The translations under genes were made by a program, and so were the position numbers. The notes below the pieces were generated by a model. The model did no database searches, was not told the DNA's origin, and saw nothing but the letters and a program-made list of their open reading frames with translations. From positions 1 through 64,000 of the forward strand of contig NZ_JJOY01000033.1 of NCBI RefSeq assembly GCF_000979455.1: a stretch of DNA of 64,000 nt, given 5' to 3'. This DNA comes from Methanosarcina sp. 2.H.T.1A.6. Its GTDB lineage: Archaea > Halobacteriota > Methanosarcinia > Methanosarcinales > Methanosarcinaceae. This document shows positions 1,500 through 22,918 of the stretch, piece by piece; position 1 is the first letter of the stretch; every line of letters starts with the position of its first letter.

Positions 1500-1696
1500 A
1501 TGATCAGGATAATTTGTAAGGTAAGACTATATAGTTTTTCTGGCACAGACCTTCTCCCTGAAAAAAATGAATACACACTGATTCTTAAAAAGAAGAAAAT
1601 ACTGTAGTATTTCTAATTGGACGGATGAAATCATGTGATTTTATTGTAAATATGCCAGAAAATGCGTTTTTGGCTTCAAACCGGTTTACTGAACTT

Positions 1697-1885
1697 TCAA
1701 TCCTTTTTAGGTTCATATATCGTTTTCTTTTTCCCACATCTTGTACACACAAAATACTTTTCTTTTACATTTGAAGCATAGATGTTCAAACCTCCACTTC
1801 TTTTCCATTTATGAAACCCTATAAAGCACAAAATACTCCTCTGTAGAGGTTTTCCGGAAACTCTGGATGGAGCCCTGTAAGCCAA
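1697..1885 (-). CDS. Small zinc-ribbon-like protein (DUF1660-like)
   Basis: A 62-aa protein with the pattern C-x3-G-x-H-x-W near residues 20-27 followed by C-x2-C-G near residues 48-52, which resembles the short DUF1660 zinc-binding proteins found in prophages and archaea. The start codon is TTG at 1885, supported by a perfect GGAGGT seven bases upstream. That site is the main reason to accept so short a gene. Metal binding is inferred from cysteine and histidine spacing; the function is unknown. It is a monocistronic unit at the edge of a long gene-poor stretch. Confidence 0.72.
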   Translation of the reverse strand: MAYRAPSRVSGKPLQRSILCFIGFHKWKRSGGLNIYASNVKEKYFVCTRCGKKKTIYEPKKD

Positions 1886-2399
1886 GTAATCAACCTCCTA
1901 TTAATGAATTTTTATTACTTGATACTTCAACCCTCTGTATTTGGAATACGTAGTATTCGAAAGTATTTGGTAGTATTTCAGGCTATCAGACAGCATTTGT
2001 AATGAATACAATATTGATTTAGGCAACTAAATCGAATTATAGAGGGAATTACATTATATTAGAAGGTTTGATGCACATCGAAGCCACATAATATTATTAT
2101 TGAAATGTTAATATTATATTAGGAGAATTGTATTTATAGATATATCAATAATATTATTTAGCTGTTAACTTCTACCTTTCCTCTTTCCTGCCCATTTTTC
2201 AAGCTACTCAAAACTATGAGAACCATGAATGCATTTTGATTTTTAGATCTGTGTCACCCGGAAGAGTCTGTGAAAACAAGAAATATTTACGTAATAATCC
2301 TTTGTTTTTGCTTTAATGTTTTCCTCATATTAAAAATAGTTGAGTTTATATAAATCGATCTGGAAAATTATTTATAACAATAAAAGCCAATCATAATTC

Positions 2400-2704
2400 G
2401 TATTTCTGCGCCGCAGAAATACGTGAAAAGTTCTTCGCTGCCATTACGATCATCACTCCACCCTGGCGTTATATGAGTGAATCGTTTCATAGATGAGCGA
2501 AGGACTGCAAGAAAAAAGGGCAATAGATGATTAGAAAGTGGTAGACTAAGGCTAAAAGCCTTATATTAGATGCGGTGGAAAGGCAAGACCGGTTTGATGA
2601 AGTCGTATCCAGATTGATGCCTCATCATGTATCGTATGATACGCCTCAACATTATGCGATACCCGGATACATACATCTTGACAGCTGTTTTTAGCCTTTC
2701 CACC
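2400..2704. ncRNA. Candidate structured RNA with nested hairpins
   Basis: No reading frame is credible here, but inverted repeats are stacked densely. 2400-2422 is a perfect palindrome with 11-bp arms. 2430-2439 (gttcttcgct) pairs with agcgaaggac around 2494-2503 with one G-U, and encloses cgat/atcg plus tcactc/gagtga arms. 2548-2562 is a small hairpin (aaggct/agcctt). 2574-2584 (ggtggaaaggc) pairs perfectly with 2694-2704. Inside that, gtatcc (2605-2610) pairs with ggatac (2665-2670), enclosing two further hairpins at 2615-2627 and 2629-2642. A TATA-like tttatata near 2345 would place a plus-strand start close to 2375. Transcription and strand are inferred. Confidence 0.5.
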
Positions 2705-2875
2705 ATTTCTACTGAATTCTGGACTGTTTTTCAGCTTAACAAAAAGAGGATATCGCCTTTTTTATTCCATGCATAAGCACTGTATGGATCAATTTCCAAT
2801 ACTTTTCTCTAAAATATAATGCTTCGCTATCTCTGTCACTTGTGCGGACCCATAACACATATTTACACTTTAGAT

Positions 2876-3076
2876 TCAACTTTCAACTTTTATTCGATTA
2901 ACTACATCCACATAAAATTCAGCATATCCACAATCTAAACAAACATGCACTTTAAATTCGCGTATGGGACCGGTAAAATAGCATTCGCTATCAGACTCAT
3001 AACCTATACGTTCTCCAATTATATGGCCTATATCGAGATTTTCGCTCCCGCATTTTGGACATTTTCCCTTTTTCAT
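2876..3076 (-). CDS. Small zinc-ribbon protein
   Basis: A 66-aa protein beginning MKKGKCPKCGSENLD and carrying a second pair, CLDCGYAEFYV, near residues 46-56, so a four-cysteine C-x2-C / C-x2-C zinc ribbon is likely. The second half resembles the C-terminal ribbon of small archaeal nucleic-acid-binding zinc-ribbon proteins. The family name cannot be fixed by eye. Upstream of the ATG lies a G-rich stretch (gtgggg) that could serve as a weak ribosome site. It is isolated, at the start of a 3.5-kb gene-free stretch. Confidence 0.68.
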   Translation of the reverse strand: MKKGKCPKCGSENLDIGHIIGERIGYESDSECYFTGPIREFKVHVCLDCGYAEFYVDVVNRIKVES

Positions 3077-3599
3077 TTTGCATTACCCCACGTCATCAAT
3101 GAGATCTGGTTTTGTAGAAATCCTCAAAAGTACTTTTTTACGAAAAAGTAAAAAATCTGATTGTAAAATTTTCCCTCATTTTTTGCCCCCACAAAAAAGA
3201 ATGAGCATTTCATATTCACATTGAATAATTATATCTGTCACAGAATAATTATATTTGTCTTAAAATAAATATATTCAATTTGTTGAGGTCCCATTCTATT
3301 AGCATCTCCATAAGAGTCTAAAAGCTGAAATGCAGCTTTTCTCAACCCTTTTTGTCATTGTTCATTTCTCAAGTCATCTTCTCGACCCTTGAAGAGCTGT
3401 TCTTTCCTTTAATGGTTCAGATAGGACAATAAAAGGTTCAAATGAATCTGCAGATTAAAAAAAGCAGAAATAAGATATAAATTGGACTTGAAAACCGCTT
3501 TTCAATTCACTCAAAAATACCAACCATGTAAAAGCTCACAATTACCTGCCGTTATATCAAAAAGAAAAAAAGTTTCTGTTCCGGCTTAGTAGAGATAAT
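3077..3599. other. Gene-free AT-rich stretch
   Basis: No open frame with credible composition or ribosome site was found on either strand. The stretch is AT-rich and leads into the repeated units that begin near 3600. No strong hairpin stands out. Confidence 0.5.
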
Positions 3600-3607
3600 C
3601 CTCTACA

Positions 3608-3655
3608 ATGACCATTTAAAATGTAGCCATTACGATCGTTTCAAAACATGGTCAT
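3608..3655. ncRNA. Hairpin of repeat unit 1 (tentative)
   Basis: atgaccat (3608-3615) pairs perfectly with atggtcat (3648-3655). The 3' arm is preceded by tttcaaaac, resembling the tttcaaaaa and cttgaaaag before the equivalent arms at 4581 and 5630. The spacer is 32 nt against 48-49 in the other two, so this is the weakest member of the set. Confidence 0.35.
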
Positions 3656-4522
3656 AATGGCCATTAATGGTTAATTGACATCTCCGGAAGAGATATACTT
3701 CATATGAGATCAATGGTAGACCCCAAATTTAGAAGAAACAAGGACGACAGAATCTAGGCATCCAGAACTTAATTTTTATGATTATAAAGTGGGCAAAAAA
3801 CCAACACATTATAATTCCCCCGTCTTTTAGTTTGTCTTTGTTTATCTTTCCGTTATACATTAGTCATCTGCAGTCAAAGTTATAAACCCCATATTAGCAG
3901 CAAAAACTCCACAGAGACTACATAAAGCTGAAAGTATTCCACACTTCCAAACTGAAAAAACCCTTATCAACCCCCAGATAGGTATTTATACTCACGGCAA
4001 TTATTTTTTTGAAACTATTCTTGATACTGATTTTCATTTGGAGAGGAGTATATTTAATTTTAATTGCCAGTGAATATAAAATAATAATGATAATAATAAG
4101 AATAACAACAACGAATTATATAAAAGTAGTGGAATAAATATTTCTAATCATTTAATAGTCTTCGAAAATCTGGGCAAACATACGGCTGAGACTGAAGGGT
4201 TTTTTCTATTCTTAATTTAGAAAATATAATTCGGCTAAGGAATGATTCAAATATAATATCAAGGGTTTTTGTTGCCAATAATGATTATTTGGGGAAATGG
4301 AACTATAGATCAATTCCCAAACTGAAAATTTGAAGTTATATTTTTATCATTCCTAAACATCAAAACTTCAGCTTTTTTTCTATAAAATCAGAATTTTTTA
4401 GAAAAGACAAAACACGGAAAATACGTAAATAAGGGTTCAAATCGCAGTAACTACTCAGATAATCACACTGGAAGCCCCGAAAAGGAACATGTAACTGCCA
4501 ACTCACAAAAAAGTAAGAACCA

Positions 4523-4589
4523 ATAGCCATCAATTCAAGATAAAATGAATCTAGAGAATTTATCCATTATATTTCAAAAAGATGGCTAT
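4523..4589. ncRNA. Covarying hairpin RNA, repeat unit 2
   Basis: atagccatc (4523-4531) pairs perfectly with gatggctat (4581-4589) across a 49-nt interior. The interior aligns with that of the element at 5575-5636 (both contain aaaatgaatc and then gaatt), while the stem bases differ and still pair. That pattern suggests selection on RNA structure. Strand is not determined. Confidence 0.5.
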
Positions 4590-5574
4590 CGAGGTTAGTT
4601 CTTCTCAAGCTATTTAGGCTAAGAAGAAGAAGAACTGGCTGAAGTTGGAACTAAATAAATTCATTATTATATATATATTGATTACTGGCATTATATTTCC
4701 CCCTCATTAATAGTGTATTTTTGTTCATCTTTACTATTCTTTAAAATGGATATCTGTACAACATCACTTAAAGGCCCTCTATCAACCCTCCAATTTATTT
4801 GACACTCACGGCAACCAGTTTACAAAATTAATTCAGTTAATGGATATTATATAATATAGATATATCCAAGTTTCAGTTGCGATGAGTATTATAAGATATA
4901 TCTTTAATTTATATAAATCAAGTAGAATAAATTTTACTTACTTCTTAGTCAAAGACGCAATATTTGCAAGTAATCCTTTGAAGATATTTAAGGAAAGGGA
5001 ATGTTTTGGTTTGGAGATAGTCAAGATAGTTCGGTTCATTAGTAAATGGGGAAGAGTTTTTTTAAGTGGAACTCATTCGAGCCATTCCACGGATCAGGAT
5101 TTGGAGATTTATCAATGTCTGTAACCCCCCATTTTTTAATTATGTTTACACTTTAACCTCTAATTATAGTCAAGGACCAAAATACCTTTACCAATCTCAA
5201 GTGAAAGATTAACGAAAAACACGGAAAGAAGGAAATTGGAGCACAATCATTCCGTGCTTTCCGGGTCTTCTGTGGACATAAAGTAAATGTAATTATTTAC
5301 GTTTGGGACATAAATACAGTAATTTTAAGAAGTAAATAATTTCATTGTCTCTTTATTGATTGTCAAAACAATTAGCACGACACCTTAGGATTTTCTTTAG
5401 TAAAACTACTAAATAGACTCTCCCAGGACCTACCAGAACAGAAAAGCTTCAAAAGAACGGGACTTAATGATTCAAGTCAGCCTTACAGGAATCTATTGAA
5501 TCTGTTATTTCTTAACTTTTGTAGATGCAGCTATTACTTAATAGAAAAATTACTTAATAGAAAATAAAGATAAC

Positions 5575-5636
5575 AGTCACCAGTTCAAAACAAAATGAAT
5601 CCGCGGAATTATTCATCATATCTTGAAAAGGTGACT
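5575..5636. ncRNA. Covarying hairpin RNA, repeat unit 3
   Basis: agtcacc (5575-5581) pairs with ggtgact (5630-5636) across 48 nt. Compared with 4523-4589, arm positions change on both sides so that pairing is kept. The interior also holds a small palindrome, tccgcgga, where the other copy has tctagaga; its outer three pairs also stay complementary. Confidence 0.5.
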
Positions 5637-5689
5637 ATTATTTCTCGCTACAATTCAAGTTACAAAACCTTCTTAATAAGTTGTCCTTT

Positions 5690-5937
5690 AGAAGTTGAAG
5701 TACTGATTGAAGTACTGGCAAAGGAAGTTTATGAAGAACTGATCGAACATATTGTTTCCTCCATTTGTTAGTATCTTTGTTATTCGTTTAGTTGTTTGAT
5801 TATCGTCTTTACCAGAAGTTGAAGTACTGATCGAAGTACTGGCAAAGGAAGTTTATGAAAAATTGATCGAACATATTGTTTCCTCCGTTTGTTAGTATCT
5901 TTGTTGTTCGTTTAGTTGTTTGGTTATCGTCTTTACC
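5690..5937. repeat. 124-bp tandem duplication
   Basis: Two adjacent 124-bp copies, 5690-5813 and 5814-5937, differ at six positions, and all six differences are transitions. In one plus-strand frame each copy reads EVEVLIEVLAKEVYE... to a stop, which could be the fossil C-terminus of a gene, but no start or upstream frame supports it. Confidence 0.85.
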
Positions 5938-6554
5938 TATTCTCCAGAGAATAAAATTTTTAACATTGTATGTACACAATCTCTTTACATTCTCTTCCAA
6001 GAGCCAATGTGTACCCATTGTTTGATGCTCACTAGCAATTGCTTTTCTAAGTTATTTTAGGAGTAAATCTTAATCTAAAGATTAACATGTCTAAATTTTA
6101 ATTGTTAGTGAGCATATAAGAATAGACCACGAATTATATAAAAAGGGGGGAATAATTCTTCCTTATCATTAAATAGTTCTCGAAAATCTGGAGAAACCCC
6201 TCTGGGACTAAATGGATCGACTTTTTTATTCAATTTATAATTTAATAGTCTCTTAATCTGATCGTAAAAGAAGGTTTTATTATCCTTTTTTCACTAACCA
6301 GATGGAAAAAAAGTTATTAAAAAAAAAGTAGGCTCTATTTTCAAAATAAATCCAATTTCAATCCTTAAAAACCCTTAATTTGTTGAAAAAAAACACTATT
6401 CCAGTCTAAACAAAAACTGTAAAACTGTCTTATTTTTATTCAAATTAACAGAATCTTTTCTAAAAGGAGAGGGTTTGATTCATTACAAGGATTAGTTTTT
6501 GGGTATTTCCTGATCTTATGCACCCCAATCATCCTGAAGAAGAGCCTTCCATAT

Positions 6555-7196
6555 TCAAATCCCTAACATTTCAATTAATTCTTTCGCCCAATTCAGCTTC
6601 TTTTTCTTTATCGGATTCACTAAGGGATCTTCAAAATCAAATCCAGCCAGCCTGATGCTTTTAGCCCCGAACTCCCTGGCTACAAAAACGCAGCGGTCCC
6701 CATCACTGAACCCACCAAAGCTGTAAACGTTATCCAAAGGCCGGGCCTGGGTAGTTGCAATAAAGCGCCTGAACCGCGGAACGTATTTTTCCAGCTTATC
6801 CATGTTATCCCCATGGGCATGGATAAGGACTATTGAGCCCCGTGTGCAGGCGAGAATCTCTTTTTCAATGTCAGCTTCGGAATTACCGTCAAGGTCGGTA
6901 CAGATGACTTCAGGCACGCGGCCCATATCCATAAGGACAGCGGCGGCTCCGTCGGCTGCAATTATCACAAAAGCAGAAAGGTCGATTTTCGAAAGCTCGT
7001 TTCTGAGTCCTGGAGCATTTCCGCAGACCAGGACAGGCTTTCCTGAAACCGTGTCTTTGAGTTCGAAAAGGCTGGCAGTGTTTTTCTCAGTCAGCTTTTG
7101 GGAAAGGAATCGGGCTGCCTCTTCATCACCTTTGCGGTCGAACCCGAAGTCTTCAAGAATTCGTTCGTAGATAGGCTCCCAGGCAGCAAAATCCAT
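6555..7196 (-). CDS. mptE: 6-hydroxymethyl-7,8-dihydropterin pyrophosphokinase, archaeal type (MptE)
   Basis: The archaeal DUF115-type enzyme that makes 6-hydroxymethyldihydropterin diphosphate for tetrahydromethanopterin, the C1 carrier of methanogenesis. It shows the family signature in order: CGNAPGL, ADGAAAVL, CTDLDGN, HAHGDN and GFSDGDRC, covering roughly residues 55-175. The aspartates of TDLDG and the HxHGDN loop are the expected diphosphate/metal site. The ATG at 7196 is chosen because GGAG lies eight bases upstream; a GTG three codons earlier would sit directly on that site. Length, about 213 aa, is normal. It lies just downstream of ileS on the same strand (about 80 bases), so co-transcription is possible. 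Confidence 0.9.
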   Translation of the reverse strand: MDFAAWEPIYERILEDFGFDRKGDEEAARFLSQKLTEKNTASLFELKDTVSGKPVLVCGNAPGLRNELSKIDLSAFVIIAADGAAAVLMDMGRVPEVICTDLDGNSEADIEKEILACTRGSIVLIHAHGDNMDKLEKYVPRFRRFIATTQARPLDNVYSFGGFSDGDRCVFVAREFGAKSIRLAGFDFEDPLVNPIKKKKLNWAKELIEMLGI

Positions 7197-7275
7197 CTTA
7201 ATCACTCCTTTCCTGTTTTTCGTTTCTGAACTTAGATTTTTTTATAGAGTTTTGTTCTTAAACTTAATTGCAGAG

Positions 7276-22835: not shown

Positions 22836-22918
22836 GCGGGAGTAACCAAGCGGTCAACGGTGGCAGACTCAAGATCTGTTCGTGCAGACGTTCAGGGGTT
22901 CGAATCCCTTCTCCCGCA
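22836..22918 (+). tRNA. tRNA-Leu(CAA)
   Basis: The acceptor stem GCGGGAG pairs with CTCCCGC, discriminator A, and CCA appears encoded directly after (22919-22921). The anticodon stem GCAGA/TCTGT encloses CTCAAGA with anticodon CAA. The long variable arm (about 14 nt) and T loop TTCGAAT fit a class II leucine tRNA. A TATA-like ctttatatg lies at 22791-22799. Confidence 0.93.

Follow-up and report, generated by a model that had tools for sequence, protein, structure and literature searches.

The 5-kb gap at positions 1500-6554 of the 64,000-nt stretch of Methanosarcina sp. 2.H.T.1A.6 analysed here (NZ_JJOY01000033.1, forward strand; referred to as the window in the rest of the text) is seemingly empty and carries two hairpins, A and B, whose interiors are alike and whose stems differ. 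Do these hairpins belong to an RNA and, if so, on which strand and in what transcript?

Two related hairpins in a 5-kb gap

The original prediction rested on the positions of the two stems, their 48-49-nt spacing, a shared interior and stems that differ yet still pair, all of which the sequence bears out. Hairpin A has the arms atagccatc (4523-4531) and gatggctat (4581-4589), 49 nt apart, and hairpin B the arms agtcacc (5575-5581) and ggtgact (5630-5636), 48 nt apart; the interior aaaatgaatc..gaatt is common to both, and both arm pairs were verified (Table 1). They are the two longest of the 41 inverted repeats in the gap. Folded as RNA, hairpin A scored z = -4.0 (plus strand) and z = -5.8 (minus strand); the corresponding values for hairpin B were -4.3 and -7.9. 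None of 200 shuffled sequences folded as well in any of the four tests (either hairpin, either strand), and the hairpins are genuine, well above shuffled folding. The MFE was lower on the minus strand for both (-25.3 vs -15.0 for A, -31.1 vs -18.4 for B). The single Rfam match in the whole window was a tRNA (22836-22918), with none at the hairpins at the gathering threshold, and a permissive search of 3400-6400 returned only matches far below gathering scores.

Table 1. Positions in the window of the hairpins, predicted ORFs and conserved blocks.
Feature	Positions	Strand	Description
Hairpin A	4523-4589	minus (probable RNA strand)	9-bp outer stem plus inner stems, about 67 nt
Hairpin B	5570-5641	minus (probable RNA strand)	same family as A, about 72 nt
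Predicted tiny ORF, unit A	4614-4691	minus	25 aa (MPVINIYIIMNLFSSNFSQFFFFLA), ribosome site gggggaaatataatg
Predicted tiny ORF, unit B, nearest the hairpin	5688-5750	minus	20 aa (MFDQFFINFLCQYFNQYFNF), ribosome site GGAGGAAACAATATG
Predicted tiny ORF, unit B, tandem duplicate	5809-5874	minus	21 aa (MFDQFFINFLCQYFDQYFNFW)
Two 124-bp tandem copies	5690-5813, 5814-5937		95% identical, each with most or all of one tiny ORF
Block P, copy 1	3991-4216		inverted pair of the type ACTCAyGGCAATTA...TAATTGCCAGwGAGTATA, then plus-strand TATA at 4117
Block P, copy 2	4805-4950		TATA at 4910; right of the unit A ORF
Block P, copy 3	6033-6234		TATA at 6135; right of the unit B ORFs, adjoins the mptE-like gene
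Different conserved hairpin	3626-3661		stem GCCATTACGA/TCATAATGGC, one C-A mismatch in the window; relatives keep this stem
Predicted tiny ORF of the third unit	3729-3809	minus	26 aa (MCWFFAHFIIIKIKFWMPRFCRPCFF), ribosome site gggggaattataatg
MptE-like gene (Pfam PF01973)	6555-7205	minus	synteny anchor

A weaker third copy had been proposed at 3608-3655, with the stem atgaccat/atggtcat. We rejected it as a member of the family: that stem is not kept in relatives, which mostly keep GCCATTAyGA/TCrTAATGGC instead (window 3626-3635/3652-3661), and covariance model R2 (see below), run with filters off, gave 15.1 bits and E = 0.0011 for 181 nt, which by our own scaling becomes roughly 0.4 at the size of the window, a chance-level score. 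Comparison with the relatives indicates a different, separately conserved hairpin. It sits 67 nt past the stop of a predicted tiny ORF with a weaker, GGGGG-kind ribosome site, a single case.

Elsewhere in the gap, a perfect 12-bp inverted repeat (2399-2423) and a GC-richer block (about 2550-2720) with the complementary arms GGTGGAAAGGC...GCCTTTCCACC lie in a stretch that is 80-88% conserved in relatives and has no Rfam match; they may represent another structured RNA.

Distribution and synteny of the hairpin family

BLAST searches against 30 genomes of the genus, with each hairpin and its flanks as query, were positive in 15/30 and 13/30 genomes for the two hairpins, their own genome included. 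Covariance model R2 was made of 20 sequences and 22 pairs, an earlier model with only 5 pairs (R1) having been set aside. R2 recovered A and B in the window with E-values of 2e-18 and 5e-16, both sequences being part of its training set, and had matches in 27 of the 30 genus genomes at E ≤ 0.1, MITE copies included. Homologues with preserved pairing exist in Methanosarcina, so that on this half the original prediction withstands the refutation it had set itself. At E ≤ 1e-4 and with stricter filters, matches came from 22 of 111 genomes of the taxonomic family, all of them Methanosarcina; among these genomes, which span 14 genera, the hairpin appears to be limited to this one.

The strongest matches come in groups of two to five copies, all on one strand and at a single site. 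An mptE-like gene adjoins the hairpin cluster in the window and in 17 of 20 fetched stretches; ileS is present in 14 and the AAA ATPase of the window in 11 of the 20. The following comparisons used 18 regions, namely the 17 fetched stretches and the window, three stretches with no usable mptE match being excluded. Both hairpins as well as a second repeated block, P, are present in all 18, with 48 copies of P. In some genomes (four loci), the mptE-like gene is present two or three times and every copy is accompanied by P and hairpin units, as if gene and array had been duplicated together. Methanosarcina carries two to several copies of the unit beside mptE-like genes, and elsewhere the unit also occurs singly.

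Predicted tiny ORFs on the minus strand

The hairpins had been placed in a stretch with no protein gene, a view contradicted by three predicted tiny minus-strand ORFs with ribosome sites that adjoin A and B, and by a fourth that adjoins the hairpin at 3626-3661. On the minus strand, about 24 nt separate the stop of the unit A ORF from hairpin A farther 3'; having the weaker GGGGG site, this ORF is outside strict GGAGG scans. In unit B, the stop of the ORF nearest the hairpin lies about 48 nt 5' of hairpin B. Being 20-70 codons long, such predicted genes would be overlooked by an ORF scan set for ordinary sizes.

When 43 hairpin-to-P intervals were aligned in minus orientation, GGAGGtAAATATAATG was recurrent. 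GGAGG-led ORFs of 14-90 aa numbered 71 on the minus strand of the 18 regions (a few other genes, such as 1697-1885, included) and 2 on the plus strand. A hairpin was found 5-85 nt past the stop of a strict GGAGG-ORF in 23 of 36 cases on the minus strand and in 0 of 36 on the plus strand; the other 13 hairpins, that of unit A in the window among them (GGGGG only), have no adjacent strict SD-ORF. The stop-to-hairpin spacing was 21-62 nt in 27 of the 57 ORFs with a hairpin beyond them, many of the others being upstream tandem copies. At five loci, some hairpins lie 35-53 nt from P, with no space for an ORF.

The ORFs carry a coding signature. Among 51 distinct ORFs, Gly, Cys and Trp together reached 36.6% in frame compared to 11.0% and 13.1% in the other frames, and Phe, Tyr and Trp 26.6% compared to 6.6% and 12.0%. 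In a set of 13 aromatic ORFs (e.g. MGYFTLYYSRVVFYYECTKLYIGACWW), summed pN was 0.392, a value inflated because pairs from two loci were out of register in the ungapped alignment, and summed pS was 0.668. The encoded peptides of about 20-70 aa are Gly/Cys/Trp-rich or aromatic (e.g. MWFGNCGWGGCGGWGGCGGWGGCGLWDWW), and six representatives gave no Pfam or NCBIfam match at E 0.1. In a longer class of tiny proteins (61-73 aa, four loci), a Gly/Cys-rich stretch is followed by a shared motif around CITAVRACK. The tiny peptides are of unusual composition and vary fast next to control parts that do not change; metal-binding, defence or signalling peptides are known to behave in this way.

Two other features of the gap lie on the minus strand: a 62-aa ORF with CxxC motifs (1697-1885), in a stretch conserved in many relatives and without a Pfam match, and a small zinc-ribbon protein (2876-3076; PF09855, Zn_ribbon_13).

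Maintenance of stem pairing and probable RNA strand

Tree and strand tests were carried out on the 36 locus hairpins that had an nhmmer E < 1e-5 and covered 55 or more model positions; hairpins with weaker matches were excluded. Watson-Crick pairs filled 76.1% of the stem cells, compared to 57.6% (sd 3.7) when substitutions were permuted within stem columns along the tree, and the observed fraction was reached in 0 of 500 trials. A MAFFT-based count on 20 sequences gave 84.4% standard pairs as against 33-42% when slid. These comparisons support the view that selection, or some process, maintains stem pairing.

Covariation was tested with our own R-scape-like script, which allows for phylogeny, not with R-scape itself. 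No pair reached E < 0.05 among the 36 locus copies (best stem pair, E = 16.7), and again no significant pair was obtained with MITEs added (64 copies). Pairs with two-sided change exceeded shuffles only at 24/500. The compensatory changes from C-G to T-A are genuine at two stem pairs but mark a few old events, and paired substitutions largely track the split between subfamilies. The proposal that paired substitutions reveal selection for RNA structure thus stands as far as the pairing is kept, but it finds no significant covariation behind it, the substitutions largely follow the subfamily split, and the strand is probably the opposite one.

For the strand, the MFE was lower on minus in 27 of the 36 hairpins (means of -23.0 and -18.5; P = 1.4e-4, paired Wilcoxon test, relatedness ignored). 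Read on the plus strand, the stem cells comprised 79 A.C and 41 G.T, and events on the tree led to A.C 42.3 times and to G.T 23.8 times (binomial P = 0.036). Since A.C on plus is G.U on minus, which is tolerated in a transcribed RNA, the excess of A.C favours minus. This moderate evidence points to minus as the probable strand of the hairpin RNA. Beyond the hairpin, T reached 39-69% at positions 4-14 on minus (32% in the region), and the tract on plus was, if anything, sharper, with T at 81-83% (positions 9-10) compared to 69% or less on minus. Such tracts on either side weigh against the minus-strand reading, and the hairpin may be a terminator on plus.

A candidate minus-strand unit

We consider it probable that A and B are conserved 3'-UTR stem-loops of predicted tiny minus-strand protein genes. 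Sequence comparison establishes the elements on which this reading draws: the family and its synteny, the order of the parts, the strand bias of the ORFs, the kept pairing, the better folding on minus and the coding signature. The unit would comprise, in this order, the promoter-like block P (one arm of its inverted pair), a 5' leader, a GGAGG-type ribosome site and one or more tandem ORFs of 20-70 aa; some 20-60 nt farther on, the hairpin would end the unit. The unit would be transcribed and translated, and the hairpin would end or protect the small mRNA, as a terminator-like element or as a 3'-end stabiliser.

Block P and the plus strand

In block P, an inverted pair comes first and a TATA box on the plus strand next; the sequence near the expected start is conserved too. 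BLAST found the block in 24 of the 30 genus genomes, and the TATA of the last copy lies 412-510 nt from the mptE stop in 16 of the 18 regions. For the predicted minus-strand gene we found no TATA box, and the clear TATA of P faces the opposite way. An alternative would be a plus-strand non-coding RNA that starts from this TATA and of which the hairpin is a part or the end. In tandem arrays P does lie upstream of each hairpin, its TATA and start region are conserved, 8 of 23 P-to-H pairs have a TATA-to-hairpin distance of 431-459, and the T-rich tract follows the hairpin on plus. We nevertheless regard such an RNA as unlikely, as the plus strand folds worse, the mismatch bias favours minus and RNAalifold gave no conserved structure for the P transcript. 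Moreover, the hairpin of scattered single units usually precedes P by 266-457 nt on the plus strand (an order found in seven stretches, twice in one of them), so that a plus-strand transcript from P cannot include the hairpin there.

Relationship of the hairpins to a dispersed MITE

Dispersed relatives of the hairpin form a MITE of about 196 bp with perfect 14-bp ends (GTAACTATTCAGCC / GGCTGAATAGTTAC), present in 24 of the 30 genomes at E ≤ 1e-4. Its 8-bp target duplications agree at 8/8 positions in 15 of 28 copies and at 7/8 or better in 20 of 28. Elements of 1600-1606 bp with the same ends encode an IS66-family transposase (PF03050, E 7e-66) and have little in common with the MITE beyond these ends. 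These elements, which also have 8-bp target duplications, were seen at three loci, with many copies in one genome. The MITE profile matched hairpin A (E 3.7e-10, model positions 57-181 of 196); for hairpin B, no match was reported at E ≤ 1.

The core homology, the shared ends, the target duplications and the profile match on hairpin A would fit a mobile-element relic or by-product, a MITE core kept palindromic by DNA-level processes and devoid of any RNA role, since a palindrome copied or corrected as DNA could also hold its arms complementary. We consider this improbable. One branch with 100/99 support separates the 36 locus hairpins from 28 MITE cores, the locus side being deeper and the MITEs attaching next to the hairpin A clade (86/73); the tree has 90 columns and no outgroup, and either set may descend from the other. 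With the two sets on either side of one supported branch, the locus hairpins do not represent a series of recent MITE insertions. In addition, the MITE end GGCTSARTAGTTAY has 0 matches in the window at up to 1 mismatch, the hairpins of conserved loci follow ORFs at an almost constant position, and upkeep at the DNA level predicts no strand bias. Comparison of the copies indicates that the hairpin is homologous to the MITE core and that the MITEs are a single lineage, to which the locus hairpins do not belong. MITE ends beside locus hairpins were looked for as well: allowing at most 4 mismatches within 80 nt on the 5' side (minus), 5 of 36 hairpins had a match compared to about 2% of random windows, a signal discarded as weak.

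A type I toxin-antitoxin-like pair, in which P RNA would control a small peptide mRNA bearing the hairpin, would suit the tiny peptides, their tandem copies and the divergent promoter-like block but is very improbable, given that the two RNAs would diverge within a unit and not overlap, that the duplex energies of P RNA with the 5' region of its own ORF resemble those of shuffled sequences (mean z -0.06 over 51 units, below -2 in 3) and that many of the peptides, being rich in Gly, Cys and Trp, are not hydrophobic membrane helices.

Significance and comparison with known systems

If A and B are indeed the 3' stem-loops of tiny minus-strand genes, a seemingly empty 5-kb gap in a well-studied methanogen genus harbours an overlooked gene family, in which promoter-like block, ribosome site, peptide and 3' structure are all conserved. 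More tentatively, and with some doubt on our part, one may picture a large, fast-evolving class of tandem tiny genes that share a divergent promoter block and a 3' hairpin and are concentrated beside mptE-like genes, the hairpin having at some time come to lie between IS66-type ends and, as a MITE, dispersed across the genus. A MITE core would then be traceable to a resident gene element or share its origin with one.

Setting aside one paper that names Methanosarcina, IS66 and MITE (PMC2246112), a literature search returned nothing on the locus, the peptides or the MITE. The small-protein genes and dual-function sRNAs of Methanosarcina mazei (PMC11456600) resemble the predicted genes as short intergenic ORFs of the same genus; main-text passages of that paper make no mention of this locus or of Gly/Cys/Trp-rich tandem peptides. 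The IS66-type Methanosarcina MITE shares the homologous hairpin core, but the copies in the window differ in having no recognisable 14-bp ends or target duplications, and they make up a group of their own with greater diversity. For termination in archaea, passages of a study on Haloferax volcanii (PMC7237163) describe a process that rests mainly on T runs, to which hairpins add in some cases only. The hairpins studied here resemble the intrinsic-terminator-like or stabilising 3' stem-loops of prokaryotes in that a stem-loop comes soon after a stop and T-rich sequence follows within about 4-14 nt, and they differ from them in their long AT-rich stem with internal loops and in being T-rich on both strands.
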